The translations under genes were made by a program, and so were the position numbers. DNA of 64,000 bases from a virus, in IMG/VR virus record IMGVR_UViG_3300034012_000625, positions 1-64,000 of that record. The stretch is one strand, 5' to 3'. The notes beneath the pieces are model-generated. The model was given only the letters and a program-made list of their open reading frames with translations. It was not told the origin of the DNA and ran no database searches. Below are positions 18,984-40,500 of this stretch, piece by piece (position 1 is the first letter of the stretch; each line of letters opens with the position of its first letter).

Positions 18984-18989
18984 GATCGC

Positions 18990-19921: not shown

Positions 19922-19927
19922 GAGCAG

Positions 19928-19956: not shown

Positions 19957-19998
19957 AAGTCATTTTTGCAACACATGATTCCGGTATCAAATTGCCTG

Positions 19999-20041: not shown

Positions 20042-20051
20042 GGGAGGCAAG

Positions 20052-21073: not shown

Positions 21074-21081
21074 GAGAACAA

Positions 21082-22054: not shown

Positions 22055-22061
22055 GGTGGCC

Positions 22062-22265
22062 ATGAACCATCTTATTGACCACCTGATCAACTTTGCCAAC
22101 CTGCGCAGCGATGCAGCCCTTGCGAAGATCATAGGCGTACACCCGCCTACGATCTCCAAGCTGCGGCATGGCCATGTAACGTTAACGCCGTCTGTCATCT
22201 TGAAGATCCACGAAGCTTTTGATATCCCGATCAAAGAGATCAAGCGGATAGCGAATGGCAGCTAA
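22062..22265 (+). CDS. Cro/C1-type helix-turn-helix regulator
   Basis: A 67-residue protein with SDAALAKIIGVHPPTISKLRHGHVTLTPSVILKIHEAFDIPIKEIKRI, a full five-helix Cro/C1 fold. GAGGTGG lies just before the ATG. It could bind one of the inverted-repeat operators at 9789 or 20009. Its 3' end overlaps the next gene by 11 bases. Confidence 0.87.
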   Translation: MNHLIDHLINFANLRSDAALAKIIGVHPPTISKLRHGHVTLTPSVILKIHEAFDIPIKEIKRIANGS

Positions 22266-22572
22266 GTCTCCGACGCAGCGCAGCCTCGAGTATCTGCGGG
22301 AGCAGGGCTATCACTGTGAGGTGGTAGAGAAGTGGAACCCGTGGAAGCGTGTGCGTCAGGATCTGTGGGGCTGGTGCGACATCCTGGCTATCCGCAGAGA
22401 TGAAGTGCTGGCCGTACAGGTAACGAGCAGCGGGGTGTCATCAAGGATCAAGAAGATCCAGGAGTCCGACACTATCGCGCACGTCAGGGAGGCAGGCATC
22501 AGAGTGGAAGTGCATGGTTGGACTAAACGGGCTAACGGCAAGTACGCATTACGAATAGAGGACATCAGTTGA
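22255..22572 (+). CDS. PD-(D/E)XK endonuclease-like protein
   Basis: A 105-residue protein. VRQDLWGWCDILAIRRDEVLAVQVTSSG (about 33-60) gives the D ... (D/E)-x-Q/K core seen in Hjc- or VRR-type nucleases, with Gln in place of the catalytic Lys. It may cut branched recombination intermediates. It overlaps the regulator upstream and the TTG start downstream. Confidence 0.65.
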   Translation: MAAKSPTQRSLEYLREQGYHCEVVEKWNPWKRVRQDLWGWCDILAIRRDEVLAVQVTSSGVSSRIKKIQESDTIAHVREAGIRVEVHGWTKRANGKYALRIEDIS

Positions 22573-22994
22573 AAGATCATCCACAGTTCGAATCAGTCAA
22601 GGTAGGGATCAAGCAGGACAACAGCGGCTACATCCTGACACTGCGCATTCACCCCGACGATCTGGATGAACGGATCATGCGGGACTTCGTAGGCGCCAGA
22701 TACATGACGGTGATGGTCAGGCTGAACGAAGAAGAGAAGCCTATGAACCGGGAGCAAGAGCTGGCCAAGGACATGGTGCGTGTATCTGGAATGCTGTGCC
22801 GAGATCCCAAGTTCTGGGAGTTCCTCTCGGAGTCCGGGCAGATCATTGAGAAATCAGACAAGGAAGCGACAGAATGGTTAAAGACATACCTGAAGGTGGA
22901 AAGCCGCGCCGACATTGGAAAAAGCCAGCAGGCGACGGAAAAGATGCTGGGAATAAAGCAGGAGTTCGCCGCGTGGAGAAGTCGAAGCGACTGA
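22569..22994 (+). CDS. conserved phage protein, TTG start
   Basis: A 141-residue protein beginning with TTG overlapping the previous stop; GAGG lies 7 bases before. SGYILTLRIHPDDLDERIMRDFVGARYMTVMVRL is a known-looking block in phage recombination clusters, followed by a helical C-terminal half. The role is unknown. Confidence 0.75.
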   Translation: MKDHPQFESVKVGIKQDNSGYILTLRIHPDDLDERIMRDFVGARYMTVMVRLNEEEKPMNREQELAKDMVRVSGMLCRDPKFWEFLSESGQIIEKSDKEATEWLKTYLKVESRADIGKSQQATEKMLGIKQEFAAWRSRSD

Positions 22995-23257
22995 TCCCGT
23001 ACTCGGTTTATCTGGATCCTGAGATACATGACGCGCTGAAAGAGAAGGCTCGCAACCGGCAGGCCAGCAAGATCGTGCGGGATGCAATCACCATGATCCT
23101 GGAAGGCGGCGATCAATTCTCTAGCGGCTACAAGCAAGCGCTGCGTGACGTGTCCAGCTTGATCCACAAGGATGATCTCGCCGGCTCAGTATCTGTGAAC
23201 GACAGACGGATCTCTGACCACTTGATAGATCAGATAGAGAGCATGGCCAATGACTAG
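22973..23257 (+). CDS. ribbon-helix-helix (Arc/CopG-like) regulator, GTG start
   Basis: A 94-residue protein. IPYSVYLDPEIHDALKEKARNRQASKIVRDAITMIL is a ribbon-helix-helix unit (strand, then two helices). The start is GTG at 22973 with AGGAG 8 bases upstream; the longer reading from 22874 lies inside the previous gene. Dimers of such proteins bind inverted repeats, so it is a candidate for the operators in this window. Confidence 0.78.
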   Translation: MEKSKRLIPYSVYLDPEIHDALKEKARNRQASKIVRDAITMILEGGDQFSSGYKQALRDVSSLIHKDDLAGSVSVNDRRISDHLIDQIESMAND

Positions 23258-23477
23258 AGATGACATTATCCGCATGGCGCGAGAGGCTGGAATATCTAAG
23301 CCGTGGGATCAGGAGCCTGTGAAATGGGAAACGCTTGAACGCTTTGCCGAGTTGGTAGCAGCAGCGGAGCGCGAGGCGTGTGCTGCGTTGTGCGACAAGA
23401 TAGCTGACGATGATGGGTTTGAAGGTGGGTATGCAGACTATTGCGCCGTTTCTATCCGCGCAAGGAGAGAACAATGA
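23250..23477 (+). CDS. small ERExxCA-motif protein
   Basis: A 75-residue protein: MTRDDIIRMAREAGISKPWD, then a helix FAELVAAAEREACAALCDKI and a C-terminal CAVSIRARRE. Related proteins lie at 23752-24105 and 25115-25315. Such proteins are common in phages and unexplained; the cysteines could bind metal. Confidence 0.75.
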   Translation: MTRDDIIRMAREAGISKPWDQEPVKWETLERFAELVAAAEREACAALCDKIADDDGFEGGYADYCAVSIRARREQ

Positions 23478-23569
23478 GTAACTATCCGTTAGGCATGGTG
23501 TTGTTTGTAATTGGTTTAGCTTGCTGGTGTTTCTTTATGGGTTATTTGTATGGGAGGAACAGTGGCTAA
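23474..23569 (+). CDS. 31-residue membrane peptide
   Basis: MSNYPLGMVLFVIGLACWCF followed by FMGYLYGRNSG: one transmembrane helix. The ATG overlaps the previous stop and its 3' end contains the ribosome binding site of the next gene. The function is unknown. Confidence 0.6.
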   Translation: MSNYPLGMVLFVIGLACWCFFMGYLYGRNSG

Positions 23570-23759
23570 GTTACCTTACACAATCACGATCTGCCCAGAC
23601 GAGCCAAACCCTAAGCAGTTCACCGCGATGACGCCACAGTTGATCAACGCTATGCGATTTGGTTACGACATGACGATTGATCAGCGGCAGCAAATGTACC
23701 CCTCAGCACCGCAGGGTATAACGCAGATCAATAATCACAAGGAGAAGAACAGTGGATGA
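23562..23759 (+). CDS. hypothetical protein, GTG start
   Basis: A 65-residue protein (V/MAKLPYTITICPDEPNPKQF ... DMTIDQRQQMYPSAPQGITQ). GGGAGG lies directly upstream of GTG at 23562; an ATG at 23550 is in frame but would use a worse site. No family was recognised. Confidence 0.6.
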   Translation: MAKLPYTITICPDEPNPKQFTAMTPQLINAMRFGYDMTIDQRQQMYPSAPQGITQINNHKEKNSG

Positions 23760-24105
23760 GGATAAAGCAGAAGTAATGCCAAATATAGATTACATATATT
23801 CGGCTGTGATAGCGGACAGTGAGGCACTGGAAGAGGCGAAGATGACGTTGGAGATCATTAAGAAAACTGATCCGGGCGTTTACGATGAGATGATTAACGA
23901 CACGCTTTCTTTGATTCGCAAAGCGTTGAGCAGTTCTATCCTTAGTGTTGTCGATAGGATGGTTAAAGTAGAGGTAGAAGCGGAGCGCGAGGCGTGTGCG
24001 AAGGTGGCTGAAGAGATGGGCAACATAGACGGAAACATGAACAAGACATGGCGCAACGGATGCTTTGACGTTGCGTTCGCTATCCGCGAGAGAGGCGCGT
24101 CATGA
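23752..24105 (+). CDS. ERExxCA-motif protein, longer form
   Basis: A 117-residue protein starting at GTG with AAGGAG upstream. The first 80 residues are acidic helices, and the end, VEAEREACAKVAEEMGN ... CFDVAFAIRERGAS, repeats the motif of the 23250 gene. It directly precedes and overlaps the first glycosyltransferase. Confidence 0.7.
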   Translation: MDEDKAEVMPNIDYIYSAVIADSEALEEAKMTLEIIKKTDPGVYDEMINDTLSLIRKALSSSILSVVDRMVKVEVEAEREACAKVAEEMGNIDGNMNKTWRNGCFDVAFAIRERGAS

Positions 24106-24866
24106 TTGACGGCAAGCCAACCATCATGATCGGCACCCCTGCGTACGGCGGTGCGATGTTCATGGAGTACGTCGACAGTCTCGTGCGGAACATCAGCTTC
24201 CTAGAAAGCAAAGGGATCAAGACGCGCTGGCAGTTCATGAACAAAGAAGCGCTGATTACCCGTGCGCGCAATGAGATAGCCAGATACTTCTTGGATGAAA
24301 CGCGGGATGACTATCTGATGTTCATCGACGCTGACATCTGGTTCCCGACCGACGGTATCTATCGGCTGCTCCAGCATGAGAAGGATGTGGTGTGCGGGAT
24401 CTATCCCAAGAAGTTCATGTTCTGGGATCGTATCCGGCAGGCTGCTCTGCGCGGCGAAAAGGATATCGAGAAGTTCGGCTGCTCGTATGTGCTGAATGCG
24501 GTGGATGATCAGGGTGATCCTGACGCAGTACCGCTCGGACCCGACGGCCTGGTAGAAGTACTGCACGGCGGCACAGGATTCATGATGATCCACAGGAACG
24601 TACTGAAAGCCATGCGCTTCAAAGTACCCACCTACCGCACGTCATTGATACAGGATAACGGACAGTTTCTCGCCCCACTCACCCGAGAGTTCTTCGGCAC
24701 CAGCATCACAGAGCTAGGATTGCTGTTGTCAGAGGACTATCACTTCTGCGAGTTGTGGAAGAAGGAGGGCGGTAAAATTTATGCAGACCCCACGATTGAG
24801 TTACGCCACGTAGGCCAGCACGTCTACGCAGGGGATCTTATGCGCGCGGGGCGCAACAACACATAG
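24102..24866 (+). CDS. GT-A-type glycosyltransferase, copy 1
   Basis: A 254-residue protein. It has IMIGTPAYGGAMF at the nucleotide-binding start, DDYLMFIDADIWFP (near 66, the D-x-D metal motif), VVCGIYPKKF (near 98), HGGTGFMMIHRNV (near 150) and LSEDYHFCELWKK (near 212). It is a paralogue of 29265-30029 with all these motifs in the same order. It probably transfers a sugar from a nucleotide donor. No signal peptide is seen, so it is cytoplasmic or peripheral to the inner membrane. Confidence 0.8.
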   Translation: MIDGKPTIMIGTPAYGGAMFMEYVDSLVRNISFLESKGIKTRWQFMNKEALITRARNEIARYFLDETRDDYLMFIDADIWFPTDGIYRLLQHEKDVVCGIYPKKFMFWDRIRQAALRGEKDIEKFGCSYVLNAVDDQGDPDAVPLGPDGLVEVLHGGTGFMMIHRNVLKAMRFKVPTYRTSLIQDNGQFLAPLTREFFGTSITELGLLLSEDYHFCELWKKEGGKIYADPTIELRHVGQHVYAGDLMRAGRNNT

Positions 24867-24875
24867 GAGGAAGCA

Positions 24876-25118
24876 ATGCTAAGAGATGGACAATTCGTCA
24901 AAGAGCCGCCACCAAAGATTGGCAGCCACTACGTGCCGCAGTTCTACCAGACAGTGCAGGACACCAACCGGATCATCGAGCAGGAAAGCCGGTGGCAGGC
25001 GTTCTACCGCAAGAACATTTCCAGCTTTGATGTTGGCGCAATCATGATTCTGATCTACGTAGCGCTGGCGGTTGTGATCACGACTCTGCGTGAGTTGTTT
25101 CACTTCATCTTTGGATGA
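24876..25118 (+). CDS. small membrane protein
   Basis: An 80-residue protein: a soluble N-terminus (about 50 residues, FYQTVQDTNRIIEQESRWQ) and one C-terminal transmembrane helix (VGAIMILIYVALAVVITTL). AGGAGGAAG precedes the ATG. The function is unknown. Confidence 0.7.
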   Translation: MLRDGQFVKEPPPKIGSHYVPQFYQTVQDTNRIIEQESRWQAFYRKNISSFDVGAIMILIYVALAVVITTLRELFHFIFG

Positions 25119-25315
25119 CCCGCAAGTTATTTGAGATGGCAAATCTGGCGGCAGAAGATGAGCAGTTGATCTATGCCCCAGATTCTGCGGCCATGTCTTG
25201 GATGCGCAAGTTCTCCAAGATGGTAGTGGCAACAGAACGTGAGCGCTGCGCTCGACTGTGTGAAGAGGCCGGACACAAAGACATAGCAGCAACTATACGC
25301 AAGGGGGAGGAGTGA
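25115..25315 (+). CDS. small ERExxCA-motif protein
   Basis: A 66-residue protein: MTRKLFEMANLAAEDEQLIY, then MVVATERERCARLCEEAGHK and AATIRKGEE. It is the third clear member of this set in the operon and overlaps the gene before it by four bases. Confidence 0.7.
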   Translation: MTRKLFEMANLAAEDEQLIYAPDSAAMSWMRKFSKMVVATERERCARLCEEAGHKDIAATIRKGEE

Positions 25316-25343
25316 ACAACTATCCGCGAGAGGGGGGTGCGCC

Positions 25344-25508
25344 ATGAGCAACTTTATTGCTGGCGTTCTTTGGTGTCTGTTTGCGCCAATAAGTTGGTTA
25401 TGCAGGTTGTGTAAACACCCATTCAGGACGCAGTGGGAAGAGAGAAGCGTAGGTTTGTATGACCATTGCGAGGTGTGCGGAACCTTAGTTAAACAGGAGA
25501 ACACATGA
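25344..25508 (+). CDS. 54-residue cysteine-containing protein
   Basis: MSNFIAGVLWCLFAPISWLC begins with a hydrophobic helix, followed by RLCKH and a final DHCEVCG, giving two C-x2-C/H pairs that could bind zinc. GAGGGGGG is the ribosome binding site. It overlaps the next gene by four bases. Confidence 0.6.
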   Translation: MSNFIAGVLWCLFAPISWLCRLCKHPFRTQWEERSVGLYDHCEVCGTLVKQENT

Positions 25509-25705
25509 CCAAAGAAGAAGCATGGCTTATGTGGATGAAAGAATCCAATCGCTACGTCGAATACGATTGGGACACGATCAAGAAGTCCTCGCACTGGCAA
25601 GCGTTCTCCCGTGGTTGGGATGCGGCAGCAATCAATGTTAACGGCTGGGACGGTGCCTACAAGATGGGCATGGAAGCAGGCAAAGAAATGGAGAAGAACA
25701 CTTGA
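25505..25705 (+). CDS. hypothetical protein
   Basis: A 66-residue protein (MTKEEAWLMWMKESNRYVEY ... SHWQAFSRGWDAAAIN). A short helical protein of a type common in phage accessory regions. It overlaps the TTG start of the fucosyltransferase gene. Confidence 0.65.
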   Translation: MTKEEAWLMWMKESNRYVEYDWDTIKKSSHWQAFSRGWDAAAINVNGWDGAYKMGMEAGKEMEKNT

Positions 25706-26646
25706 AAGTCGCCGTACACAATCACTACGAGTTCATCACCCGCGACGGCTACCTGTTCAAGAACGAGAACAGCGATGTCGGCCACAACCTGCTACGCCCG
25801 TGGGTAGAGTTGTACAAGTTGTGCCAAGCCAACGGCATAGAACTCTACACGCTTGACCAGGTTGATCCGGCAGAGCTGGACTTCGTGATCTACATGGATC
25901 GCCCACAGGTAGAGCCTGAGATCGGCAACGCCAAGAAGGCGCTGATCTTGTACGAACCAGACCTGATCCTGCCGCAGAACTGGGATACCGCGTATCACGA
26001 TCAGTTCGCAAAAGTACTGACGTGGGATGACCGGCTGGTCGGGCGTGGCAACTACGTCAAGCACAACTTCACCGTGGACTGGAGCAGCAGGCTGAACACC
26101 GAGATCCACAGATCGGAGTTCGAACGCCGCAAGTTACTGACGCTGATGCAGACGGCCAAGAACAGCCAGCAACTACACAGCCTGTACCCCAAGCGGATAG
26201 AAGCCATCTTCTGGTTCCAGCAGAACGCCATGTTCGAGTTTGATCTTTACGGCAGAGGCTGGGATATCAAGACCTTCTTCTGCGCCAAGGGTACGACGAA
26301 CAACAAGCTGGCTACGCTGCACAACTACCGCTTTGCCCTGACGTTTGAGAACTGCGACAACGCGGTCGGCTATATCAGCGAGAAGATCCTGGACGCCTTC
26401 ATGGCCGGCATCGTCCCTGTGTACTGGGGCGCACCCAACATCCATGACCACATCCCGCGCGAGTGCTTCATTGACATGACGGACTTCGGCAGCTGGGAGG
26501 AGTTGTACGGCTTCCTGCGTGGCGTGGACTACCACCGCTACTGTGAGTATCTGGAGAACATCGACGCGTTCATCCGGTCAGACAAGAAGTTCAGCAACGA
26601 GCATGAGATCAAACAACTGTACCGACTGATCGAGGAGAACAAATGA
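25702..26646 (+). CDS. GT10-type alpha-1,3/4-fucosyltransferase-like enzyme
   Basis: A 314-residue protein. The donor-binding half has [35 protein letters not shown] (about 213-247), the CAZy GT10 signature (FENS ... Y-x-T-E-K-L ... A-x2-A-G-x-V-P-V-x-x-G), then [22 protein letters not shown]. The N-terminal half binds the acceptor. It starts with TTG overlapping the previous stop. It is followed directly by the two genes that make GDP-L-fucose, its expected donor, so substrate and enzyme are produced from one message. Confidence 0.87.
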
Positions 26647-27632
26647 AGGCACTGATCACAGGCGTGACCGGACAAGACGGTTCATACCTAGCAGAGCTGT
26701 TGTTGGAAAAGGGATACGAGGTACACGGCATCAAGCGCCGTTGCTCCAACCTGAACACCGAACGGGTGGATCATCTCTTTGGCAATCCCAACTTCCACCT
26801 GCACTACGGTGACATGACCGACGGCAGCAACCTTGCTCACTTGGTCAAGAAGATCAAGCCCACAGAGATATACAACCTTGCAGCCCAGAGCCATGTGGCT
26901 GTCAGCTTCGAGCAGCCTGAGTACACCGCCAACGCTGATGCCGTGGGTACTCTGCGTTTACTGGAAGCGGCACTCTGGGAGGAGGCCAAGTTCTACCAAG
27001 CATCTACCAGCGAGATGTTTGGCGCTAGTCCTGCGCCACAGGATGAGCAAACGCCGTTCTATCCGCGCAGTCCGTACGGTGCAGCCAAGCTGTACGCCCA
27101 CTGGATCACGGTCAACTACCGCGAGGCCTACGGTATGTACGCCTGCTCGGGCATCCTGTTCAACCACGAATCCCCACGCCGTGGCGAAACATTCGTCACC
27201 CGCAAGATCGTGCAGGGTCTAGTCAGGATCAAACGCGGCCAGCAAGACAGGTTGTTGCTGGGTAACTTGGACGCTCGCAGAGACTGGGGTCACGCCAAGG
27301 ATTACGTCCGCGCCATGTGGCTGATGCTTCAGCAGGACGAGCCAGAGGACTTTGTGATTGCCACCGGCTACACATGGACGGTCAGACACTTTGTGAAAGC
27401 GGTCGCTGCCAGACTATGCATGAACCTAGTCTGGAGCGGCAAGGGCGCAAATGAAACCGCAAGCTGGCAGGGCAAGGCGGTAGTGGCTATTGATGCCAAA
27501 TACCTGCGGCCGGCAGAAGTGGACACCCTGTGCGGAGATGCCACCAAGGCGAAAGAGAAACTAGGCTGGGTGCCTGAGTACACATTTGACCAACTGGTAG
27601 ACGAGATGGTGGAGGCTGAACTTGAAAGGTAA
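26643..27632 (+). CDS. gmd: GDP-mannose 4,6-dehydratase
   Basis: A 329-residue short-chain dehydrogenase-type enzyme that turns GDP-mannose into GDP-4-keto-6-deoxymannose. The NADP-binding start is [20 protein letters not shown], and the active-site Y-x3-K is in [12 protein letters not shown] (near 141). Family blocks [35 protein letters not shown] and [15 protein letters not shown] are intact. Its stop lies 11 bases inside the next gene, GDP-fucose synthase. Confidence 0.97.
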
Positions 27633-28542
27633 AAAGATCATGGTGCTGGGTCACAAGGGTATGGTGGGTAGCGCCATATCCAGGTTGCTCAAGCACAAGA
27701 AGTATGAAGTGCTGACGGTGGATGCTGACCTACGCAACCCGCCGGAAAACCTGTATGCAGACAAGCCAGACTACGTGTTCATCTGTGCAGCCAAGGTCGG
27801 CGGCATCATGGCCAACAGCACGTACCCTGTGGACTTCCTGTACGACAACACGGCCATAGCATTCAACGCTATTCACCAAGCACATGAGGCTGGCATCCAG
27901 AACCTGATGTTCTTGGGATCAAGCTGCATCTATCCCAAACACGCGCCGCAGCCAATCAAGGAAGAGCATCTGCTGACAGGCCCGCTTGAGCCTACGAATG
28001 AAGCCTATGCCATCGCCAAGATCGCAGGCATCAAGCTGTGCGAGGCGTACCGCAAGCAGTACAAGCGCAACTACGTGGCCGTCATGCCAACCAATCTCTA
28101 CGGCATCGGTGATAAGTACGACTTGCAGAACAGCCATGTCTTGCCGGCGCTGATCTACAAAGCGTATCAGGCCAAGCAGAACAACGAACGCACGATGACT
28201 GTCTGGGGTACAGGCAAGGTCATGCGCGAGTTCATGTTTGCCGATGACCTGGCAGATGCCTGCGTGTTCCTGATGGAGAAGGGCTACGACGGCGGGCTGA
28301 TCAATATCGGCACAGGCAAGGACGTGACTATCCGCGAGGTAGCAGACTTGATTTGCCGTACCGTTCAGTTCAAGGGCGAGCTGACGTTCGACAACTCCAA
28401 GCCTGACGGCACACCACGCAAACTGCTCGATGTATCCAAGTTGCACAAGCTAGGTTGGAAGGCCAAGACTTCTTTGGCAGATGGCATCAATGAAACGTAC
28501 AAAGACTTTCTGCGTAGACATATCATGAGGGCTAGCCTATGA
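27622..28542 (+). CDS. fcl: GDP-L-fucose synthase
   Basis: A 306-residue epimerase/reductase converting GDP-4-keto-6-deoxymannose to GDP-L-fucose with NADPH. The Rossmann motif [10 protein letters not shown] (near 10), [27 protein letters not shown] and the catalytic Y-x3-K in [17 protein letters not shown] (near 135) are intact. The start is TTG at 27622 with GGAGG 7 bases upstream. It completes the fucose donor pathway with gmd. Confidence 0.96.
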
Positions 28543-29255
28543 GTCTGTCTGTCGCAGTAGTCACCAGCACCCAAGGCAGAGACACCCTGACACGGTGTAT
28601 CGAAAGCGTCCACAACCAAACCTATAAAGCTACCCATTATGTATTTGCACATGGCAAAGAGTATTCCAACAAAGTCCAGTCTCTGGTATCGCCTGACACG
28701 GTCGCCGTTTACCTACCTTGCGCTAATGGTGGCGGTGGTCTTGCTATGGCTCCTGTATTTGCTGCTAGCCCCTATCTCGTCAACGAAGACGTTATCTTCT
28801 ACCTCGACGATGACAACTTCTACGATCCAGACCATATCGAATCCCTCGTCACGCTGATAGAACAGCATGACTTGGGCTGGGCGTACAGCCTGCGCAAGAT
28901 CGTAGACAACAGCGGCAACTATCTGTTCGATGACAACTGCGAGTCGCTAGGCTGCCAGCCTAATGCCAGCGGTCATTACCTCGTGGACAACTCTTGCTAC
29001 GCGGTCAGGGCAGATGTTGCCCGCAAGCACAGCCATGCTTGGTATGTCCCGGTAGTGTCAGACAGATCGTTCCAAGCTTCATTAATGCAGGCCAAGGTTC
29101 GCTGCGGCACCAGCGGCAAGCACAGCGTCAGTTACAGACTATCCCATGACGGGTCAGGAGGCATGAGCAAGGAGGCATTCATCGACAACAACAACTTTAT
29201 GCGTAGCAAGTTCACAGACTTCCCGTGGACGAAGCGGCAGATCTTTAACTACTAG
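28539..29255 (+). CDS. GT2-like glycosyltransferase
   Basis: A 238-residue protein: SVAVVTSTQGRDTLTRCIESVHNQTY is a GT-A/GT2 start, and VIFYLDDDNFYDPDHIESLV (near 88) holds the D-x-D metal site. It is short for GT2 and lacks a membrane anchor. It overlaps fcl by four bases. Confidence 0.82.
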   Translation: MSLSVAVVTSTQGRDTLTRCIESVHNQTYKATHYVFAHGKEYSNKVQSLVSPDTVAVYLPCANGGGGLAMAPVFAASPYLVNEDVIFYLDDDNFYDPDHIESLVTLIEQHDLGWAYSLRKIVDNSGNYLFDDNCESLGCQPNASGHYLVDNSCYAVRADVARKHSHAWYVPVVSDRSFQASLMQAKVRCGTSGKHSVSYRLSHDGSGGMSKEAFIDNNNFMRSKFTDFPWTKRQIFNY

Positions 29256-29264
29256 GAGAACTAG

Positions 29265-30029
29265 ATGGCAAAACTCTATATTGCAACACCGATGTACGGC
29301 GGTCAGTGCTTCGGCTATTTCGCCCAGTCTGTCATGACCTTGCAGAACAACCTGCGAGACAACCGCGTGGACATGGCCTGTAGCTTCCTGTTCAACGAGT
29401 CCCTGATCCAGCGCGCGCGTAACGCACTGGTCCACGGGTTCCTGAAGACAGACTTCACCCACATGATGTTCATCGACGCAGACATCCACTTCAATCCTGC
29501 CGATGTCCTGCCTATGTTGCTAGCCGACAAGCCGGTGATCTGCGGTATCTATCCCAAGAAAGAGATCAACTGGAATCAAGTCCACGCAGCAGCAGTAGCC
29601 GGCGTTCCTCCGCAAGACCTGCGCAAGTACAGCGGCTCCTTCGTGGTCAACCTGATCGACTACCAGAACGAGCAGCGCGTAGAACTGGATAAGCCGGTAG
29701 AGATCTGGAACGGTGGTACTGGCTTCATGATGATCAAGCGTGAGGTGTTCGAGCAGCTAAAAGATCATGTGCCGTCGTACATCAATGACACCAATGATCT
29801 GGGTGGCAACATTGGCAACGAGCGTATCCATGAGTTCTTTGCCACCAGCATCGAGCCATTGGGTGAGCGTCTGCTGTCTGAGGATTACCACTTCTGCAAG
29901 ATCTGGCGTGACAAGTGCGGCGGCTCCGTCTGGGCAGCACCATGGGCGCAGCTCTCACATATCGGTACCCACAAGTTCGACGGCATCCTGACAGAGAAGC
30001 CACAACCCCCTCAATCTCAAGAGGTGTAA
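29265..30029 (+). CDS. GT-A-type glycosyltransferase, copy 2
   Basis: A 254-residue paralogue of 24102-24866: LYIATPMYGGQCF, HMMFIDADIHFNP (D-x-D), VICGIYPKKE, WNGGTGFMMIKREV and LSEDYHFCKIWRD are in the same order and spacing. It ends in a proline/glutamine tail. AGGAG precedes the ATG. The next gene starts at the base after its stop codon. Confidence 0.82.
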   Translation: MAKLYIATPMYGGQCFGYFAQSVMTLQNNLRDNRVDMACSFLFNESLIQRARNALVHGFLKTDFTHMMFIDADIHFNPADVLPMLLADKPVICGIYPKKEINWNQVHAAAVAGVPPQDLRKYSGSFVVNLIDYQNEQRVELDKPVEIWNGGTGFMMIKREVFEQLKDHVPSYINDTNDLGGNIGNERIHEFFATSIEPLGERLLSEDYHFCKIWRDKCGGSVWAAPWAQLSHIGTHKFDGILTEKPQPPQSQEV

Positions 30030-31262
30030 ATGTTCATACCAGGCCAGACTTACATTCCTGCCTCCGGCCAAGTGGTCGGGGACAGGGAGAAGGAGCTGAT
30101 GCACGAAGCTGTTGACCGTGGTTGGTTGACAGCCGGTGCGTTCAATCGGCAACTGGAAGAAGGGCTGACCAAGTTCTTGGGGTGCAAGGCCGTACGCACC
30201 ACAAGTTCTGGCAGTTCTGCCAACCTGATCGCCTTCTCTGCGTTGACTAGCCCCTCTCTGGGCAAGCGGGCAATCCAGAAGGGCGACGAGGTCATCAGCG
30301 TTGCCTGCGGGTTTCCTACGACGATCGCGCCTATCGTGCAGTTCGGCGCTATCCCTGTGTTCTTGGATGTGAACAGCACCCTGAACATAGATACCAGGAT
30401 GCTGGAGCAGGCCATCACGGCAAAGACCAAAGCCATCATGATTGCCCACACGCTGGGCAACCCGTTCAACATCGACGTAATCATGGACGTGGCAGACAGG
30501 TACAACCTGTGGGTCATCGAGGATACCTGTGACGCACTGGGCGCCCGCTGGCGTAATCAGTACGTCGGCACGTTTGGTGATCTGGCCACGCTGTCGTTCT
30601 TCCCTGCGCACCACATCACTACTGGCGAAGGCGGTGCTGTCATTATCAACAACACCAAACTCGGCCGGCTGGTGGAGTCCTTCCGTGATTGGGGCAGGGA
30701 CTGCTGGTGCGAGCCTGGACAGAACAACACCTGCAAGCGGCGGTTCGATCAGAAGTTTGGCGAACTACCCTACGGCTATGACCACAAGTACGTGTACACC
30801 CATCTGGGCTACAACCTGCGGATCACAGAGATGCAGGCCGCCTGTGGTGTTGCACAGCTGGAGAAGCTGCACCAGTTCATCTCTGCCCGGAAGTCTAACT
30901 ACGGCTTCTTGAAAGAACGGTTAGGTGGATACGAAGAGTTCTGGTTGCCGGCGGTCTACACAGACGCACAGCCTAGCTGGTTCGGCTTTCCCATCACGCT
31001 ATCTCCCACGGCCAAGTTCACACGGGATGCACTGACAAAGTATCTTGAGAGCAAGCAGATTGGGTGCAGGTTGCTGTTCGCAGGCAACGCTACCAAGCAG
31101 CCTTTCATGAAGGGTCAGAAGTATGCCGTCAAAGGAATACTGGAGAACACCGACTACGTCATGAACTGCACCTTCTGGCTAGGTGTACAACCGGCACTGA
31201 CGGAGGAGATGTTGACCTACGTCTGTGACCAGATAGATGCGTTTATGCAGGAGAACACATGA
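30030..31262 (+). CDS. rfbH: E1/RfbH-type nucleotide-sugar 3-dehydrase (iron-sulfur, PMP-dependent)
   Basis: A 410-residue member of the DegT/DnrJ/EryC1/StrS fold. In CDP-6-deoxy-4-hexulose 3-dehydrase (E1) the aminotransferase Lys is a His, and a 2Fe-2S cluster is held by C-X57-C-X1-C-X7-C. Here EDTCDALG (about 169) is followed exactly 57 residues later by CWC and 7 residues later by Cys (in NNTCKRR), and SFFPAHHITTGEGGA has His where Lys would be. It removes the 3-OH of a 4-keto-6-deoxyhexose with the help of a reductase. The 3' end overlaps the TPP enzyme by four bases. E1 itself works on a CDP-sugar; the donor here is unproven. Confidence 0.94.
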   Translation: MFIPGQTYIPASGQVVGDREKELMHEAVDRGWLTAGAFNRQLEEGLTKFLGCKAVRTTSSGSSANLIAFSALTSPSLGKRAIQKGDEVISVACGFPTTIAPIVQFGAIPVFLDVNSTLNIDTRMLEQAITAKTKAIMIAHTLGNPFNIDVIMDVADRYNLWVIEDTCDALGARWRNQYVGTFGDLATLSFFPAHHITTGEGGAVIINNTKLGRLVESFRDWGRDCWCEPGQNNTCKRRFDQKFGELPYGYDHKYVYTHLGYNLRITEMQAACGVAQLEKLHQFISARKSNYGFLKERLGGYEEFWLPAVYTDAQPSWFGFPITLSPTAKFTRDALTKYLESKQIGCRLLFAGNATKQPFMKGQKYAVKGILENTDYVMNCTFWLGVQPALTEEMLTYVCDQIDAFMQENT

Positions 31263-33040
31263 AGGTATCTGACTACATTTGCTCAAGGATCAAAGAGCTA
31301 ACTGGTACAGATACTGTCTTCCTACTGTCCGGCGGTGGCATGATGCACCTGCTGGACAGCGTCGGGAAGACCGATGGCCTGCGCTACATGCACTTGCATC
31401 ATGAGCAGTCCTGCGGGTTTGCAGCCTATGCCTATGGCAGAGCTGTGAACTCGACAGGTGTTCTGTTTGTAACCAGCGGCCCCGGCGGCACCAATGCCAT
31501 CACGGCTGTCGCCTCTGCATTTACAGACAGCGTACCCATGCTGATCATCTCCGGCAACATCACACAGACGTTCTCTGCCCATGGCCTGAACCTGCGCATA
31601 CGAGGCTTCCAAGAGCTAGACATCATCGAAGTAGTCAAGCCGATTACCAAGTATGCCAAGTTCATCAGCTCGGCTGCCGATGTGAAGTTGGAGTTGGAGA
31701 AGGCTGTGTCCATGGCAAAGGACGGCCGCCCTGGACCTGTGTGGCTGGACATTCCGCTGGACGTGCAGTGTGCCGACATCACGCCGGACACACTCGCAGG
31801 TTACAAAGGATTCAGTTCTAACGCAGCACCGACGAAGGATCTGATCAAGGACATCCGGCAACGCCTGCAATCAGCCAAGCGTCCGCTGATCCTGTTCGGC
31901 AACGGTGTGTTCACCAGCGGTGGCAAGGATGCAGCCAAGCAGTTGGCATCAGCCTTTACCGTGCCTGTGCAGACAACATGGGGTGCGGTTGATCTGATCC
32001 CTGACAGTCATCCTAATTACTTCGGGCGGTCGAACTCTTTCGGTCCACGCTACCCCAACATCATCATCCAGAACGCCGACTACATCCTGTCTATCGGGGC
32101 GCGTCTGGGTGTCCAGCACACCAGCCACAACATCGAGACGTTTGCCAGAGGTGCATTCGTTGACATGATTGACCTTGATCCGGCAGAGGCTAGCAAGCCG
32201 GGGCTGAATGTCGGCAGGCACTCACGGGTCTGCGCCAAGAAGCTGATAGACGCACTACTGGATGAGCAGCCTGTCTCTGCATCACAAGAGTGGCTAGGCT
32301 ACTGCCGCAAGGTCAAGGAGAAGTTCCCTGCCGGTGCAACGTTCAAGGACGTGCGGGATGAGCAGTACGTCAATCCGTACTACTTCTACCAAGAGCTAGG
32401 CAGGCAACTACCAGAGGATGCTGTTCTCACGCCGACAGGATCAGGACAGGCTTTTATCATCGGCCATCAAGTGCTGGAGATAAAAAAGAACACTCGGATG
32501 TTTGGTGCCAAGAACTTGGCCATGATGGGATCCTGCCTGCCGTCTGCTATCGGCGCGCACATGGCTACCAACAAGCGGGTCATCTGCGTGACAGGCGACG
32601 GCGGCATCCAGCTCAACCTGCAAGAACTAGCCATCATCAAGCACAATGATCTGCCTATCAAGATCTTCGTGTTCAACAACGCTGGCTATCACGCCATAAG
32701 GATTACGCAGGAGAAGTACTTCGACAGCCGGTACGTAGGATCTACCGAAGACACCGGCGTATACATCCCGTCGTTCTCCAACGTTGCTCAATGCTACGGC
32801 CTGAAGTACAGGAAGCTGCACAACAATATTCAGGTGGCAACGCTGATCGACAGCGTACTGAGCAACGATGATCCTGAGATCATAGAAGTCATCATGGATC
32901 CGCATAAGCCAACCACGCCAACAATCGGATCGTTCATGCGGGAAGATGGCACGATGTCATCCAGACCGCTGGAAGATATGGCGCCGCTGCTAGACAGAGA
33001 AGAACTACGCAGTCTGATGTACATAGACTTGATGGAATAG
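31259..33040 (+). CDS. TPP-dependent acetolactate-synthase-like enzyme, YerE-like by context
   Basis: A 593-residue enzyme of the acetohydroxyacid synthase fold. The N-terminal domain has LLSGGGMMHLLDS and the catalytic Glu in HHEQSCGFAAYAYGRA (near 46). The middle domain spans about 190-330. The C-terminal TPP domain has GDGGIQLNLQELA ... VFNNAGYHAI, the GDG-X24-NN thiamine motif (near 446). Placed between an E1-type 3-dehydrase and a reductase, it matches YerE, which adds a two-carbon unit from pyruvate to a 3,6-dideoxy-4-keto sugar in yersiniose synthesis. Other decarboxylases or carboligases of this fold cannot be excluded. Confidence 0.85.
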   Translation: MKVSDYICSRIKELTGTDTVFLLSGGGMMHLLDSVGKTDGLRYMHLHHEQSCGFAAYAYGRAVNSTGVLFVTSGPGGTNAITAVASAFTDSVPMLIISGNITQTFSAHGLNLRIRGFQELDIIEVVKPITKYAKFISSAADVKLELEKAVSMAKDGRPGPVWLDIPLDVQCADITPDTLAGYKGFSSNAAPTKDLIKDIRQRLQSAKRPLILFGNGVFTSGGKDAAKQLASAFTVPVQTTWGAVDLIPDSHPNYFGRSNSFGPRYPNIIIQNADYILSIGARLGVQHTSHNIETFARGAFVDMIDLDPAEASKPGLNVGRHSRVCAKKLIDALLDEQPVSASQEWLGYCRKVKEKFPAGATFKDVRDEQYVNPYYFYQELGRQLPEDAVLTPTGSGQAFIIGHQVLEIKKNTRMFGAKNLAMMGSCLPSAIGAHMATNKRVICVTGDGGIQLNLQELAIIKHNDLPIKIFVFNNAGYHAIRITQEKYFDSRYVGSTEDTGVYIPSFSNVAQCYGLKYRKLHNNIQVATLIDSVLSNDDPEIIEVIMDPHKPTTPTIGSFMREDGTMSSRPLEDMAPLLDREELRSLMYIDLME

Positions 33041-33048
33041 GGGAGAAC

Positions 33049-33951
33049 ATGAAGATTGCAATACTCGGGGCTACCAGCGAGATAGCCAAGGATCTGATTC
33101 TGTCTTTTGAAGGAGCAGACCTACACCTGTTTGCCCGCAACAAGCTGGCGCTGGATCACTGGATGGTGGAAAACAACAAGAGATATCCCACCAGATTCTT
33201 GTCTGACTTCTCGCGGCATCATGAGTTTGACGCCATCATCAACTTCATCGGTGCCGGTAGCCCAGAGCGTATCCAGCAGATGGGTAGCAACATCTCCTAC
33301 GTCACAGGGTTCTATGACCTGATGGTGTTGGACTATCTGGAGCAGCACAAGAACTGCCAGTACATCTTCATCTCCAGCGGCGCGGTGTTCGGGGATAACT
33401 TTGAGACGCCAGCCAACGCACAGAAGATGTCATCCTTTCCTATCAACGACATCCAGCCGCACCACTACTACGGCATTGCAAAGGCGCAGGCAGAGTATCG
33501 TCATCGGCTGTCTGACAGAAACATCATCGACCTACGTGTGTTCAGCTACTACAGCAGCACCATGAATCCTGATCACCAGTTCATGGTCAGCCAGATGGTG
33601 CAGGCGGTCATGCGAGATGAAACATTCAGAGCAGACATGAACCGTCTATCCCGCGACTACATCGGACCCAAGGACTTCTATCAGATGATCCAAGTCTTGC
33701 TGAGAAACAACACGGTCAATCAGGCGGTGGACTGCTACAGCAGAGCGCCCGTGACAAAAGAGAAACTGCTGGATGGGATGTGGAAGCGGTATGGCATGAA
33801 GTATGTGGTGAGCGCCGGATCTCCGTACCATCCTACGGCAGTCAAGCCGTGCTACTACTCCACCAATACGGCAGCGTACGCGCTGGGTTATCGGCCAACG
33901 ATAACATCCCTTGAGTCCATCTTTGAAGAAGCTGACAAGTTGCTAAAGTGA
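33049..33951 (+). CDS. short-chain dehydrogenase/epimerase, possibly YerF-like reductase
   Basis: A 300-residue extended short-chain dehydrogenase. KIAILGATSEIAKDLIL is the Rossmann start; IFISSGAVFG (near 107) and HYYGIAKAQAEYRHRL (Y-x3-K, near 143) form the active site. It begins 8 bases after the TPP gene. In yersiniose synthesis the last step is reduction of the acetyl branch by an enzyme of this class, so this would complete the trio. A sugar 4-epimerase/reductase role is also possible. Confidence 0.85.
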   Translation: MKIAILGATSEIAKDLILSFEGADLHLFARNKLALDHWMVENNKRYPTRFLSDFSRHHEFDAIINFIGAGSPERIQQMGSNISYVTGFYDLMVLDYLEQHKNCQYIFISSGAVFGDNFETPANAQKMSSFPINDIQPHHYYGIAKAQAEYRHRLSDRNIIDLRVFSYYSSTMNPDHQFMVSQMVQAVMRDETFRADMNRLSRDYIGPKDFYQMIQVLLRNNTVNQAVDCYSRAPVTKEKLLDGMWKRYGMKYVVSAGSPYHPTAVKPCYYSTNTAAYALGYRPTITSLESIFEEADKLLK

Positions 33952-34100
33952 ATCTAACACAGACTCGCTGGTGCGCTACCTGCGCCAGCTTCCGCCGCTG
34001 TCCGGGCGGTTACTTTAAGATTAAACACGGCAGAAGACAGTGGCTGTGCCACGACTGCTACCAGAAGACAAGGCCGAAGAATGTGGTGTCCGACGTGTGA
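33948..34100 (+). CDS. 50-residue zinc-ribbon protein, GTG start
   Basis: It reads V/MNLTQTRWCATCASFRRCPG followed by KHGRRQWLCHDCYQK: two C-x2-C pairs 20-odd residues apart form a zinc ribbon. GTG overlaps the previous stop. Its end overlaps the next gene by 20 bases. It is probably nucleic-acid binding. Confidence 0.6.
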   Translation: MNLTQTRWCATCASFRRCPGGYFKIKHGRRQWLCHDCYQKTRPKNVVSDV

Positions 34101-34278
34101 TAAGCCAACGCAGGTGATAGACAGCCGCAAGTATCAGGACATATCCCGCACGTTTGACTTCGTTGAACGCCGCCGGATATGCCGTGACTGCGGGCATACG
34201 TTTTCGTCTATCGAGATTGCCAAGGATCTGTGGGAGAAACACTACCGCCCACCAAGGAGAAAGAGTGAAGACGCTTAA
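34081..34278 (+). CDS. NrdR-like zinc-ribbon protein
   Basis: A 65-residue protein whose WCPTCDKPTQVIDSRKY ... ERRRICRDCGHTFSSIEI copies the N-terminal zinc ribbon of the ribonucleotide reductase regulator NrdR (CPxC ... VIDSR ... RRRxCxxCGxRFTTxE). The ATP-cone domain is missing. It may bind DNA, but not as a normal NrdR. Confidence 0.72.
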   Translation: MWCPTCDKPTQVIDSRKYQDISRTFDFVERRRICRDCGHTFSSIEIAKDLWEKHYRPPRRKSEDA

Positions 34279-34549
34279 GGAGTATATGAACGAAGTAGCA
34301 GAGGTAGGCTGCGTCCTTTGCCATCATCTTGGCTACGGTCACACGCCTGCTCACCTGCATCATCCACGCGACGCGGCTGGAGGAGCGCAGCGAGCGTCAG
34401 ATTGGCTCGTGATCCCCCTGTGTCCAGAACACCACCAGGGAGCGTCAGGCTATCATGGGCTGGGAAGCAGAGGGTTCTATACACGGTACAAGCTCACAGA
34501 GTGGGACTTGATGGCCATGACTATTGAGAGGTTGCATAAGTCTTCTTGA
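34265..34549 (+). CDS. Ref-like HNH nuclease
   Basis: A 94-residue protein with GTG start and AAGGAG upstream. CVLCHHLGYGHTPAHLHHP and VIPLCPEHHQGASGYHGLGSR match the zinc/HNH core of phage P1 Ref and related recombination nucleases. It is the last gene of the rightward operon; its end overlaps the convergent giant virion gene by 29 bases, and no terminator is visible. Confidence 0.82.
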   Translation: MKTLKEYMNEVAEVGCVLCHHLGYGHTPAHLHHPRDAAGGAQRASDWLVIPLCPEHHQGASGYHGLGSRGFYTRYKLTEWDLMAMTIERLHKSS

Positions 34550-37500
34550 CCTCTATCCGCGCTTCTTCCATCTGCTTTGCCAGCTCGCCGATCAGTACCT
34601 TTATCCGATCAGTCTCTTCTTTCTTCTGAGCGCCGGTCATGTTCTCGTCGTTGCGGATAGCTATGATTACCTGACGCATCTTGGCCATGTCTTTGGAAGC
34701 GTTGTCGTAGAACTTGGCCATCGCAATCTTGTCGCCCTTCTCCTTCAAGATCTCCTGCACCTTGTCCGCCTGACCTAGCTGCGCGAAGTGCCGCATGTCA
34801 GCGTATGCCTGGCTGATCTCTTTGTTGTTCTCGTAGAACGCCGTGACGTACTTGGACTGCGTGGCAGGCAACGTCTTGATGAAGCCCATAGACATGGTCT
34901 CTGTCCAGTTGGCATCTGGGTAGGCAGACTTGGAGAACGGCATCACAGCATAGTGCGACGTTGCAGAGATGGTACCGCCTAGCCAGCCAAGATATCCCTT
35001 GATCGCGTAGTCTGTTTGTACCGGAGATACTTCCATCGACTCTGGCAGGAATACGTTTGCCACTTGCGATAGACCGATGGCCAGCGGGCTGGTTCTCTCC
35101 GCTATGCGCTCTGCTTTCGACAGACGCTCCATGCCCGCAGTCTCGATCGGCGCGCCAGTGAAGCTGTCCTTGTTGGCGTACAGATCTACCAATGGCTTAA
35201 AGACCTGCGGCATTGGGTTGATCGCAAAAGTGTCCGTCAGCATACGGCTGATTGACTGCCCGAATACTTTACCCTCTGCGCCCTGATCAATAATCTGCTC
35301 AAGCACACGCTCGGCCAGCGTACCCATCGCGCCAATCTCAAATGGCTTGGGTATACGGACGGCGGCATCCATACCAGGAAGCCTGAACCACCAGAAGTTA
35401 TCGCGGTCCCACTGCTCCCGCTTCTTGAACTCTTCGTCATCTTTGAATGCCATGTACAGCATCAGGGATGCCAGCACGACAGCGCCCATCACGACGCTGA
35501 ACTGCTCTGCCCGCTGCTTGTCTGTGGCTTCAATCGGCTTGCCTGTGGCCGTGTTGTAAATTACCCGGCTAGTTGGAATGATGCCATCCCTGCCCAACTT
35601 GTACAGACCCTGCACACGCGCATTCAAGAATGGAACTACCTGCGTCAGCAAGCGGAAGGCAGGCCATGAGCCTTGCATGGAGAAGTCCAGCATGTCTCTG
35701 GCGTAGAACGATGCTTCCAAGTGTGTGTAGTTCTTTTTCGTCTCTGGATTAACCGTCTCTCTAAGCTGCTTGTACAGCGCCATACGGTTAGCAGATTCCG
35801 ACTTGTTGCCCAGTTCCTGATATGCCCGCCACGCCTTGCCGATACCAGCTTGAATCTTCTTCTCGTTATCTAGGATGTTCTCACCCTTGATGCCGCTGTC
35901 CAGCAGGCGCTTGATTAACTTGGCCTGATCGCCCTCATATGCGGAGCCGAAGTTGAAGATCGCTCCACCTGCAAGCGCAGAGATGTGCGCAGGATTATTG
36001 CGGTCAGATGCTGCCCAGCCTTCAATGACGTTGGCAAACGGGTTCTTCTTCAGATCCGTCACAGCGATAGCCGAGATCGAATCACGGAACAAGTTACGAA
36101 TCTTGAACGCCGGGGACAGCGTGACACCAAACTGGAGCAGATTCTTGAAGTCGCGAGCAACATCAACAAACTTGGACTTCGGCCCCATGTAGCCGATCGA
36201 CATGATGGATTCCAGCAGCATAGGATCCACGATGTCAAAGTACGCAGGCTTGCCGTCAATCATGGTCTTGATCATGCCCTTGCCGCTGGTGGTGTACTCT
36301 GGCTTTAGCTTGCCGTCGCCAATCAACTCACCTGACTTGCTGCTGTAGACCTTGCCATCACGCCATTCCAGACCGACCTTCAGGTTGGGGAATGCACCAC
36401 CCAGATCCATAGTTGCCCGCACGGTAGCGTTGGCGGCCTCGTTCTTCATGGACGCAGACAGGATGTGACTCCAGTTGCGCAGGGTGTTCTCCATCAAGTC
36501 GCCGAACGGTTTCTCACCACCCTTCAACGCCTTCGAGAAGTACTGGTTCACCAGCCCTGACTTGGTGGCCGCAGCCTGCACGTCACCACCTTCATCCATC
36601 ACCTTGTAGAACGGGATGTAGTTAATGTCGTTGGCATATATGTCATAGGCTTCTCTATTGATTAGCCCTTGCTTGAGCGCGATGTTCAGCACAGAGCGGT
36701 TCAGCCTGTTCATATCCTTCTGAACTTGCTGGTATACCTCGAGCCGTGACTTACCATCAATCTTGCCAGCAGACAGTTGATCCCGTTTTGCCACAACATC
36801 GGGATTAATCGACGTGCCCTTGATGGATGAGCGCAGATTTGTGATCTCTTTTTTAATCTGCTCTATCTGATCATTGATCTTATTGGCTTCTCTGGCTGTG
36901 CCAGCTGCTTTGCGCTCGGCAGTCAGTCGTTGGATCTCAAGCTTTAAGCTATCAATCTGGCTTTCAGCCCGGCGCGACTTTTCATAGATAGCGTTTTCTC
37001 TGTTGAGCGCCACCCATATCTGGTACCGATCCACCTCCATGCCGACCGGCTCCAACGCTTTCAGTAGACCCTTCGTGTCCTTGGCAATATCCAATGCGCC
37101 GTCAGTTAGTTTGACCTCACCATTAAACAGGATGCCCTCTAGCGCGCCGTCGATAGTCTTCGACATGCGGGCTTTCATGTAGGCTTCTTCGCTGATATCT
37201 TTGATTGAGCGGTACTGGTCAGCCACACCTTGCGCCAGCTTCATGAAAAAGCCGTCACGCATCCCATCTATCTTGTCGATGATGGTTTTGTTTTGCGGGG
37301 CAAATATTGGCTCAAGCGCGTTGTACAGATCATCCGGCACACCATCAAACTGACTCTTCTTCAGGGTGCGTTTCTGCAACGCCTTCTGTGCAGCGGCCTT
37401 GGCTTTCTGTGCGGGGGTAGGAGGTTCTTCTTTCTCCGCTAACTCAAACTTCCGGCCAGCAGCACGGTACATCGTGTCGATGTCTTGAATGGGTGTAGAC

Positions 37501-40500
37501 AGAACTTCTTCCGACAGAGCTACCAGTCGCTCAAGCGCACTTTGCTGGCTCTTGTTGATGCCAAGCAGCTTGCGGATAGCTTCGACGAACACCTTAAATC
37601 CGTTCGAGCGCTTGTACTCAATACCAGCCAGGTACTTTTGTATTTCAATTTCAACCATGCCATACGCAACAAGCTCATCAATGTTGGCAAGCATTTGTCT
37701 TGTGTTTAATTTCTCTGGCACTGGCCTGCCCGCAGCCCGATCCTCCCTCACTTTTTTCATGATGAACTTGCGAAGGATTTCTAGGTCGGCTACCGGCCCA
37801 CCTCTTACATTGCGAGTCTGTCTTGTAATAAAGAGCTGCCCCATGGTCGCCAGATGAAGCATCTCGTGCAGCAGCGTCCTGTAGTTTGTGCCGACTACCT
37901 TTTCTGGCTGACCAGGGACATTAGGACCGTTGACTCTTACGTCGTACTTTGGACTCTGGCCTGGACCAACAGGAAGCGGCGTTACCGTGCCGTAAGTATT
38001 CTTGCGGCGGAATCTGCCTTTGATGACCCCGAAACTCATTTGAATTCCGCGATCATTCATAAGCTTGACGCGATTGCGCACAGCCTCTGCCACGGTTTTG
38101 GCAAAGTTATTGGGTGCGTTCTTCACCAACCAGTTGGATAGCTGTACTACATCCATGCCGTCAACCTCTTGAGCTATCTGCTCCAAAGGCTTTTCGATCG
38201 TGTACGTTTGCTGATCCGGTGGGGTCGGCGGTTCTTGTGGCGGCTTGGGTGTCGTTGGTTTCTTGGGCGGTCTAGGCTCTGTGCGTAAGACACCAAATAC
38301 GTTTTCCAGCGGTGTAGCTACAGCTACATTGCCAAACATGTCTGGCTCTGCCGTTGCCTGCTGTGCTGCTTTATTGGCTTCTGCCGCAAGCTCAATCAGA
38401 GAATCGCCGATTCTGCGTGGCGCGTTCTTGTTGGCGGCAAACATGCTGACTACCTCTCGAGTCAGCGGGTCCATGTCTATGTCACCTTGATCTATGTACT
38501 CACCTAGATCTTTGCCCTGCCGGCGCGCATTGACCGCCAACTCAGCAGCCTTGGTTACATAGTTACGAACATCGTAGTCACCGGCGTTCTGAAGATTGGA
38601 CATCGCAGGAGCTGCTATGGACATGCCGCGCAGTATCTGTAGCGCCTCTGGATCAGTGGTTTCTGCATACAGGTCTATCAGCGCATCATTCTCATAAGCG
38701 CGGGCGAACAGCGCGTTTGCCAGACGAGTTTGTGCGAGCGGTGTAGGTTGCCCCTGACGGTTCATAAGTTGCGCTTGCTCTTCTTTAGGCATCGCAGCAA
38801 CAAACTGACGCAAAGAAGAAATCGTAGGGCTACCATCTGTAAGGAAATCAATTCCTTGCAGATCAAACCTGCCCATGTCGATCTTCGCCTGCTCCGTCGG
38901 TGACATGCCCAGCTGCCCACCGACATTACTCTTGTCGGCAATGTCAGGCGTCAATGATGACTTGGGCATGATCCGAACAAGGACGGGCTGCTCCATAGCA
39001 TCGATTACGCTTGATTCGATGCCATGCGCTTGATCCTCTAACATACTACGCACGTAGTCGGTGTATGGCCCGCTGCGATACAGCTCTTGCAGCCCAGCTA
39101 TACGCCCGTTACCAGCAACCGGTCTAATACCTTCAAATGCTGGATCAGCGTACTGCTGGACGGTCGTGCCATCAGCGCGATTGCTTGGCGTGATTTCACG
39201 CGCATCTAGCACTGCGTATTGCACAGGAATCTTGGTGCCGTCAGACGCAGACACAACATCAACGCGACCCAATTGATTTTCATCAATCTGTACATCACTA
39301 ATAACCACAGGCGCACCCGCACCAAAATCTCTGGACACAGACAGGCGGTTGTAGTCCGGCTGCCGAGCGATGCTCATCATCTGCTGGATAGATGCTGGCT
39401 TGGTGCGATCACGGTTTTGGATGGCCGCAAACGACAAGCCAAAGTCCTCTGGCTTACCCTCCCAGTAGTTCTCCATCGCCTTGGTTACATCTTCCGGTGG
39501 CTCTGGCATAGGTTTCGCAGGAGGTGGCTCCGCCGGCGGGGCGACCGCTTCCACAGGCGGCACAGCAGGCGCAGGCTCTACCCGTGCAGCAGGTTGTACT
39601 GCTGGTTCTGCCGTTGGTTCTTCTGTCGGCTTGACCTCTGGTGGTGGTGCTTCTGCCCTGCGTGTCAGTCCAGCAGCAGTGCCAAGACCAAGGCCGCCTA
39701 CAGCAGCCATACCCATAGTCTCGCCCACGCCTTCTGTCAGGCTGCGAGTAGGATCGACTTTCTGCGCTTGATAGTTCTGCGCTACCTTGCCGCCACCTTC
39801 TTCGATCATCTCGCTGATAGTCTCGCCTACACCGCCCTTGGCAGCAGCAGCACCTCTAGCAGCAAGACCGCCTTTGATTGGCACCTTCGCCATGGCGCGT
39901 TCGATAGCACGGCCACCGGGCAACAGCTGTGCTGCCAGTGAGATTACCGCAGCGCTTGCGCCCGACGCACGAGCGTAGCCCAGCGCGCGGCCAGCAGCTT
40001 CAGTCTCGGACACACCTTTATCCACCATCTCTTTGTACAGCTGGACATACGTATCTGCACCAATGTCAGCACCTTGCTGTGTGGCGCCCGTGCCTACAGC
40101 GCCAGCCACAGCAGTCCTAGCGCCAGCACCGGCTAGGCTCAAACCACGCGCAACCGCCAGACCCGGTAGCAGGTTTGGTGCTTGCTCTGCGATGAAGTTA
40201 GATAGCAGCGCAGGATCCTTGATAGTCTCCATGAAGGCGGTAACGCCCTTGGATATCTCACCTTCTTTTCCTGCTTCTTTGATCTTGGCTGCGCGCTCTG
40301 CCTCACGGCGCTTCAGCTCTTCTGACTTCATAGCCTCGCCAGTCTCGCGCATCTCGCGGCCGATTCTGGTCAGACCTGTGTCAGAGAAGTCGCCGGTAGC
40401 CAGACCGTATAACTGGCCTGGCAACTGTGTCAGTGCGCCAGCACCGGAGACTACGCCAGCGCCAATATCCTTGGCAGCCTCACCAAAGGTGCGTTCTTTT

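Follow-up and report, generated by a model that had tools for sequence, protein, structure and literature searches.

A phage module of an E1-type 3-dehydratase, a YerE-like carboligase and a reductase probably builds a branched 3,6-dideoxyhexose, with the carboligase swapped among relatives

RfbF and RfbG make CDP-4-keto-6-deoxyglucose, and reductive 3-deoxygenation requires electrons from E3 or a substitute. An E3 encoded alongside is usual for E1/RfbH and not strictly defining. In yersiniose/YerE-type pathways (YpYerE, JanthE, ErwE), an E1 is followed by a carboligase and then a reductase, and YerE acts on what E1 makes, CDP-3,6-dideoxy-4-keto-glucose, to which it transfers an acetyl group taken from pyruvate (PMC12247030). 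According to the same 2025 review, three ThDP superfamilies are able to add to ketones (decarboxylase, transketolase and alpha-keto acid dehydrogenase 2), all tied to branched-sugar pathways. C4-branched deoxysugars are known from some bacterial LPS and antibiotics, carboligases are sought as biocatalysts, and the review names viruses among the unexplored sources (PMC12247030). An rfbH in a virus is not new, as the gene is listed among viral auxiliary metabolic genes in two papers (PMC10653327, PMC11295528), neither of which was found to mention a carboligase-reductase module or its swapping. What we did not find in the literature searched is the module of E1, carboligase and reductase, or any exchange within it of one carboligase superfamily for another; a search on phage, branched-chain sugar and thiamine diphosphate returned no paper. 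The module lies in the window, the 64,000-nucleotide stretch analyzed here, which comes from a 65,258-base virus record:

30030..31262, + strand: E1/RfbH-type PMP- and [2Fe-2S]-dependent NDP-4-keto-6-deoxyhexose 3-dehydratase (410 aa; NF011936, 3bcx/3bb8 and motif count)
30528-30530, + strand: codon of C167 of the phage E1
30609-30611, + strand: codon of H194 of the phage E1
30702-30704, + strand: codon of C225 of the phage E1
30708-30710, + strand: codon of C227 of the phage E1
30732-30734, + strand: codon of C235 of the phage E1
31259..33040, + strand: YerE-like ThDP-dependent carboligase (593 aa; TPP_enzyme N, M and C domains; best PDB match 8rph)
33049..33951, + strand: extended-SDR nucleotide-sugar oxidoreductase (300 aa; Pfam Epimerase, weak)

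An earlier note on this DNA had claimed that the first of these proteins carries the exact cysteine spacing of E1 and a histidine in place of the aminotransferase lysine, 27 residues past the first cysteine. A scripted residue count bears out both points, giving C167-X57-C225-X1-C227-X7-C235, exact and in register with 3bcx, and placing His194 at C167+27, opposite H220 of Yersinia E1. In the H220K mutant structure 3bb8, it is the lysine that faces H194 in the alignment. Cysteines 167, 225, 227 and 235 are the predicted ligands and His194 the predicted catalytic residue; none of the six remaining cysteines fits the ligand pattern. The protein reaches 626.6 bits against the RfbH equivalog NF011936 (cut-off 423), which places it within that family. 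It also aligns end to end by phmmer with Yersinia pseudotuberculosis E1 (CDP-6-deoxy-L-threo-D-glycero-4-hexulose-3-dehydrase, 3bcx; 515 bits, ~51% identity over the full length) with all four cysteines and the histidine in register, its N-terminus being ~25 residues shorter. ColD (GDP-4-keto-6-deoxy-D-mannose-3-dehydratase) falls 330 bits behind, at 185. Judged on the sequence, the Cys/His pattern is one of homology to E1 and not of chance.

Structure prediction points the same way. The AlphaFold model (mean pLDDT 94.1) superposes on the 3bb8/3bcx crystals with a TM of 0.94 and 1.4 Å, and clearly more poorly on ColD (TM 0.87, 3.2 Å). The earlier note had proposed this overlay as its check, and the modeled fold matches E1, with no cysteine-separating fold at the fold level; model confidence is lowest in the ligand loop (residues 221-240), at pLDDT 74 and 80 by block. 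Taken together, the close fold match and the alignment register suggest that the four cysteines would cluster as in E1. Family, fold and ligand set support an E1/RfbH-type 3-dehydratase as the product, with the activity predicted. With His194 in place of the catalytic lysine, the protein does not appear to belong among the DegT sugar aminotransferases. Nor is it a ColD, which shares the fold and the Lys-to-His change but lacks the cluster ligands, whereas the phage protein has all four cysteines and lies far nearer to E1. The pattern had also been claimed to set the enzyme apart, and this holds for aminotransferases and ColD by family, fold and ligands but not for SpnQ (dTDP-4-keto-2,6-dideoxyglucose 3-dehydratase), which, compared by description alone, likewise has four cysteines and a [2Fe-2S] cluster (PMC8987622); the gene context of the relatives favors CDP.

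E1 relatives are encoded at 63 viral loci. The four cysteines and the histidine are invariant across 35 aligned, diverse viral homologues, down to ~41% identity, and all five residues are kept in 57 of the 63 viral matches (window not counted). The exceptions are two proteins with alanine at the first cysteine, two cut by contig ends, one broken frame and one outgroup, an aminotransferase-like protein with lysine (L064). Both alanine variants (L026:9001-10182 and L045:9001-10191) keep the histidine and the other three ligand cysteines, and loss or alteration of the cluster is possible there. At the locus with the broken frame (L043), E1, the carboligase and other genes are split into short frames, reflecting assembly errors or decay. 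Compared with one relative (L016), E1 has a dN/dS of ~0.10 and the carboligase one of ~0.12, indicating purifying selection on both.

The carboligase start codon overlaps the E1 stop (ATGA). The protein carries a ThDP motif (GDG446-448) and an activating glutamate within HHEQ47-50. Its best solved structure is 8rph at 374 bits, the YerE-like enzyme JanthE (PMC12188165), followed by an acetolactate synthase at 253 bits; against acetolactate synthase models it scores 329 bits, under the cut-off of 538. These matches place it nearest to YerE-like enzymes and not to acetolactate synthase, with carboligation as the predicted reaction. The SDR retains conserved catalytic residues (SS109-110, Y141-x3-K145), and its model (pLDDT 88) reaches its highest query TM, 0.85, with 8v4g/8v4h, an NADP-dependent CDP-sugar reductase. 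This is a fold match only, at 15% identity; no close characterised relative and no PHROG family were found for the SDR. From the modeled fold, we propose that it acts as the branch ketoreductase, in a YerF-like role. The three genes match YerE-type pathways in order and domain set, with JanthE the nearest structure. In a yersiniose-type route to a branched 3,6-dideoxyhexose they make up the lower half, and the phage has only that half, since RfbF, RfbG and E3 were not found in the genome record. Sister phages have a split carboligase or, in its place, a transketolase.

It is probable, in our judgment, that the phage E1, the YerE-like carboligase and the SDR together build a branched 3,6-dideoxyhexose from a host nucleotide sugar, with the branch swapped among relatives. 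With PMP, its [2Fe-2S] cluster and electrons received via a host reductase, E1 would remove the C3 hydroxyl from a 4-keto-6-deoxyhexose that the host makes in nucleotide-linked form, most likely as CDP-4-keto-6-deoxyglucose. The resulting NDP-4-keto-3,6-dideoxyhexose would be the acceptor for the carboligase, which would add an acyl group to the C4 ketone, probably an acetyl derived from pyruvate. The SDR would then reduce the branch ketone, and a phage glycosyltransferase would move the branched sugar onto a glycan. In relatives, the sugar would be the same, but a split decarboxylase-type enzyme or a split transketolase would add another group to it. We infer the substrate, reaction order, donor, host supply and destination in this scheme.

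The genes for the upstream steps are consistently missing from the window's clade, with RfbF and RfbG at 0 of 24 viral loci. By contrast, RfbF accompanies E1 at 71 of 80 bacterial loci and RfbG at 72 of 80. When whole records were searched, just two other viral ones had RfbF/RfbG matches above the cut-off. One viral record (L022:1991-10209) combines E1 and a fused carboligase with both RfbF and RfbG, constituting a nearly complete phage-borne pathway. Searches for the E3-type FAD domain (PF00970) in 51 viral records and for a Fer2 protein (PF00111) in 22 gave none, some of these records perhaps being fragments. Because the CDP-glucose genes and E3 are absent from the records, substrate and electrons presumably come from the host. 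Bacterial loci, collected by a genome-collection scan with the E1 alignment (a scan with the carboligase alone gave zero matches), share the order RfbF-RfbG-E1-(YerE-type or split transketolase)-SDR, as in Rugosibacter (L080), Burkholderiales (L081) and two further loci (L093, L111). They thus keep the same E1, carboligase and SDR order as the phage but carry both upstream CDP-glucose genes. This arrangement is common in Burkholderiales and other Proteobacteria, and such bacteria are a plausible source and host range of the phage module.

The sugar island upstream of E1 raises another route to the substrate:

25702..26646, + strand: glycosyltransferase family 10, fucosyltransferase-like (PF00852, 62 bits)
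26643..27632, + strand: GDP-mannose 4,6-dehydratase, Gmd (TIGR01472, 532 bits, cut-off 415)
27622..28542, + strand: GDP-L-fucose synthase-like, Fcl (NF047922, 448 bits, under the cut-off of 500)
28539..29255, + strand: glycosyltransferase family 2 (PF00535, 35 bits)
29265..30029, + strand: glycosyltransferase-like (weak Anp1; phrog_1574, 150 bits; weak phrog_34859 glycosyltransferase)

The last of these reading frames ends one base ahead of the E1 start. It is related to a second glycosyltransferase-like protein of the island (24102-24866), and both belong to phrog_1574, a family of unknown function. Given the phage Gmd, a GDP-linked substrate is conceivable, if unlikely: E1 would take GDP-4-keto-6-deoxymannose in a ColD-like manner and yield a GDP-linked branched or colitose-like sugar, with no CDP sugar involved. 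Gmd and the Fcl-like reductase do belong to the same run of genes, 2-3 kb upstream of E1, and the CDP-glucose genes are missing from the phage. We rank this reading low because Gmd and Fcl are not conserved with the module; both are missing from most close E1-carboligase-SDR relatives, and only 3 of the clade's 24 loci have a Gmd match of more than 300 bits. The prevalence of RfbF/RfbG beside bacterial E1 relatives (71-72 of 80 loci) and the far closer match to E1 than to ColD also argue for a CDP substrate. As few relatives have Gmd/Fcl, the two genes are probably a separate GDP-fucose branch, which the family 10 glycosyltransferase and Fcl would explain.

A ThDP carboligase was present within the fetched stretch at 48 of 62 viral E1 loci (outgroup excluded); six of the 14 loci lacking one are short or end close to E1. 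In the window's clade, the proportion rises to 23 of 24, directly adjacent at 22, although these loci stem from related phages and so are not independent counts. As a background figure, the window's carboligase has matches in 52 of 50,697 annotated phage records, many of which look like pieces of host DNA. Three kinds of carboligase occur in the clade: fused decarboxylase-type, split decarboxylase-type and split transketolase. By Pfam, the decarboxylase-type partners of viral E1, fused or split, carry PF02776/PF00205/PF02775, the split transketolases carry PF00456 and PF02779 (L004, L006, L013, L015), and one dehydrogenase-E1-type partner carries PF00676 and PF02779 (L025), so that all three ketone-adding ThDP superfamilies are present beside viral E1. 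Catalytic motifs were found in the carboligase forms examined, with SDG in the phage transketolase halves versus the usual GDG. The enzyme takes a third arrangement in another viral group (L046, L051, L053, L056-L058, L063), where the carboligase is split ahead of the middle domain (~172 + 370 aa) and precedes E1.

The exchange can be seen at nucleotide resolution. Two relatives (L005 and L015) share 96.9% of their DNA letters as far as the E1 stop, after which L005 has a fused decarboxylase-type gene and L015 a transketolase pair with zero DNA similarity to it; similarity returns at the SDR start, with 86.7% identity in the SDR. A second pair (L004 and L016) shows the same pattern, at 93.8% to the E1 end and 91.4% in the SDR. 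The well-supported branches of the E1 tree require the transketolase state to have changed at least four times. Such neighbor-preserving exchange is what we would expect if selection favored putting a different branch on an unchanged sugar. We would give even chances to a broader reading, in which this lineage of uncultured phages converts a host sugar nucleotide to C4-branched 3,6-dideoxyhexoses and has the carboligase replaced time and again by one of an unrelated ThDP superfamily (decarboxylase-type versus transketolase), placing different branches on the same sugar as a modular glycan switch in the phage-host or phage-phage contest over surface recognition.

These swaps also bear on whether the ThDP enzyme belongs to the sugar pathway. 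It could instead be a metabolic gene of the acetolactate synthase type, placed beside a genuine E1 by a loose host-derived island, and its sub-threshold match to such models agrees with this. We consider that quite improbable, as JanthE leads the solved structures by 120 bits, the start codon overlaps the E1 stop, these genes stand together with RfbF-RfbG in bacterial clusters, and the partner may be a transketolase, which is not an acetolactate maker. That the E1 protein would act as a PLP aminotransferase and yield an amino sugar, as SpnQ does when its reductase is absent (PMC8987622), is very improbable even with no E3/Fer2 protein found in the phage, given that E1 and ColD did not aminate under the same conditions (PMC8987622), histidine replaces the catalytic lysine, and a C4 amine would remove the ketone required by the adjacent carboligase.

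On the E1 tree, the window's protein falls within a viral-only group, and the nearest bacterial E1s, mostly proteobacterial, share at most 61% identity. Acquisition by viruses was probably not single, because viral E1s form several groups, with many long branches and an unsure deep order. The best tblastn matches in full annotated cultured phages, at ~35%, were in the cyanophages S-H68 and RN05-S, whose proteins keep the histidine and C-X-C but have a longer spacing ahead of the last cysteine. No carboligase of the kinds searched lies beside these genes, and on spacing and neighborhood we rejected them as close relatives and assign them to a different branch. Such divergent E1-like proteins, with PAHH, C-X-C and the longer last spacing, are carried by cyanophage S-H68 itself (L073:5914-7209), a marine virus (L075) and a 642-kb uncultured phage (L076), and none of the carboligase kinds searched adjoins them. 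A 56% match named 'Salmonella phage S.Kent 1-2-1' was set aside as a 2.6-kb fragment that is probably host DNA. Terminase relatives include phage DSL-LC04 and Pelagibacter phage HTVC027P; at ~57% they are too distant to name a host.

Candidate destinations for the branched sugar are modification of the infected cell's LPS and glycosylation of the virion; the latter is established for other phages, according to Freeman et al. 2023 as cited in PMC12363180. Lysogenic conversion is not favored because no tyrosine integrase was found in the window's record or its clade; one occurs in another relative's record (L020). Phages that swap carboligases behind a near-identical E1 would give natural matched pairs for the effect of the branch on phage recognition, and the module would supply split, small carboligases. 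What phage sugar-nucleotide islands make thereby becomes testable for one defined product.

A promoter and terminator scan of 18500-34600 gave the same counts as shuffles and nothing usable. The sugar island is followed directly by a single 2037-aa reading frame on the other strand (34521-40634, -) that is kept in relatives. Close to the tail genes is a 2OG-Fe(II) oxygenase family protein (51834-52580, -; phrog_81). Two neighboring 565-aa glycine-rich proteins (52703-56110, -), with internal duplication (SGSWTCP...GGGGGG repeats), are likely tail or fibre proteins.
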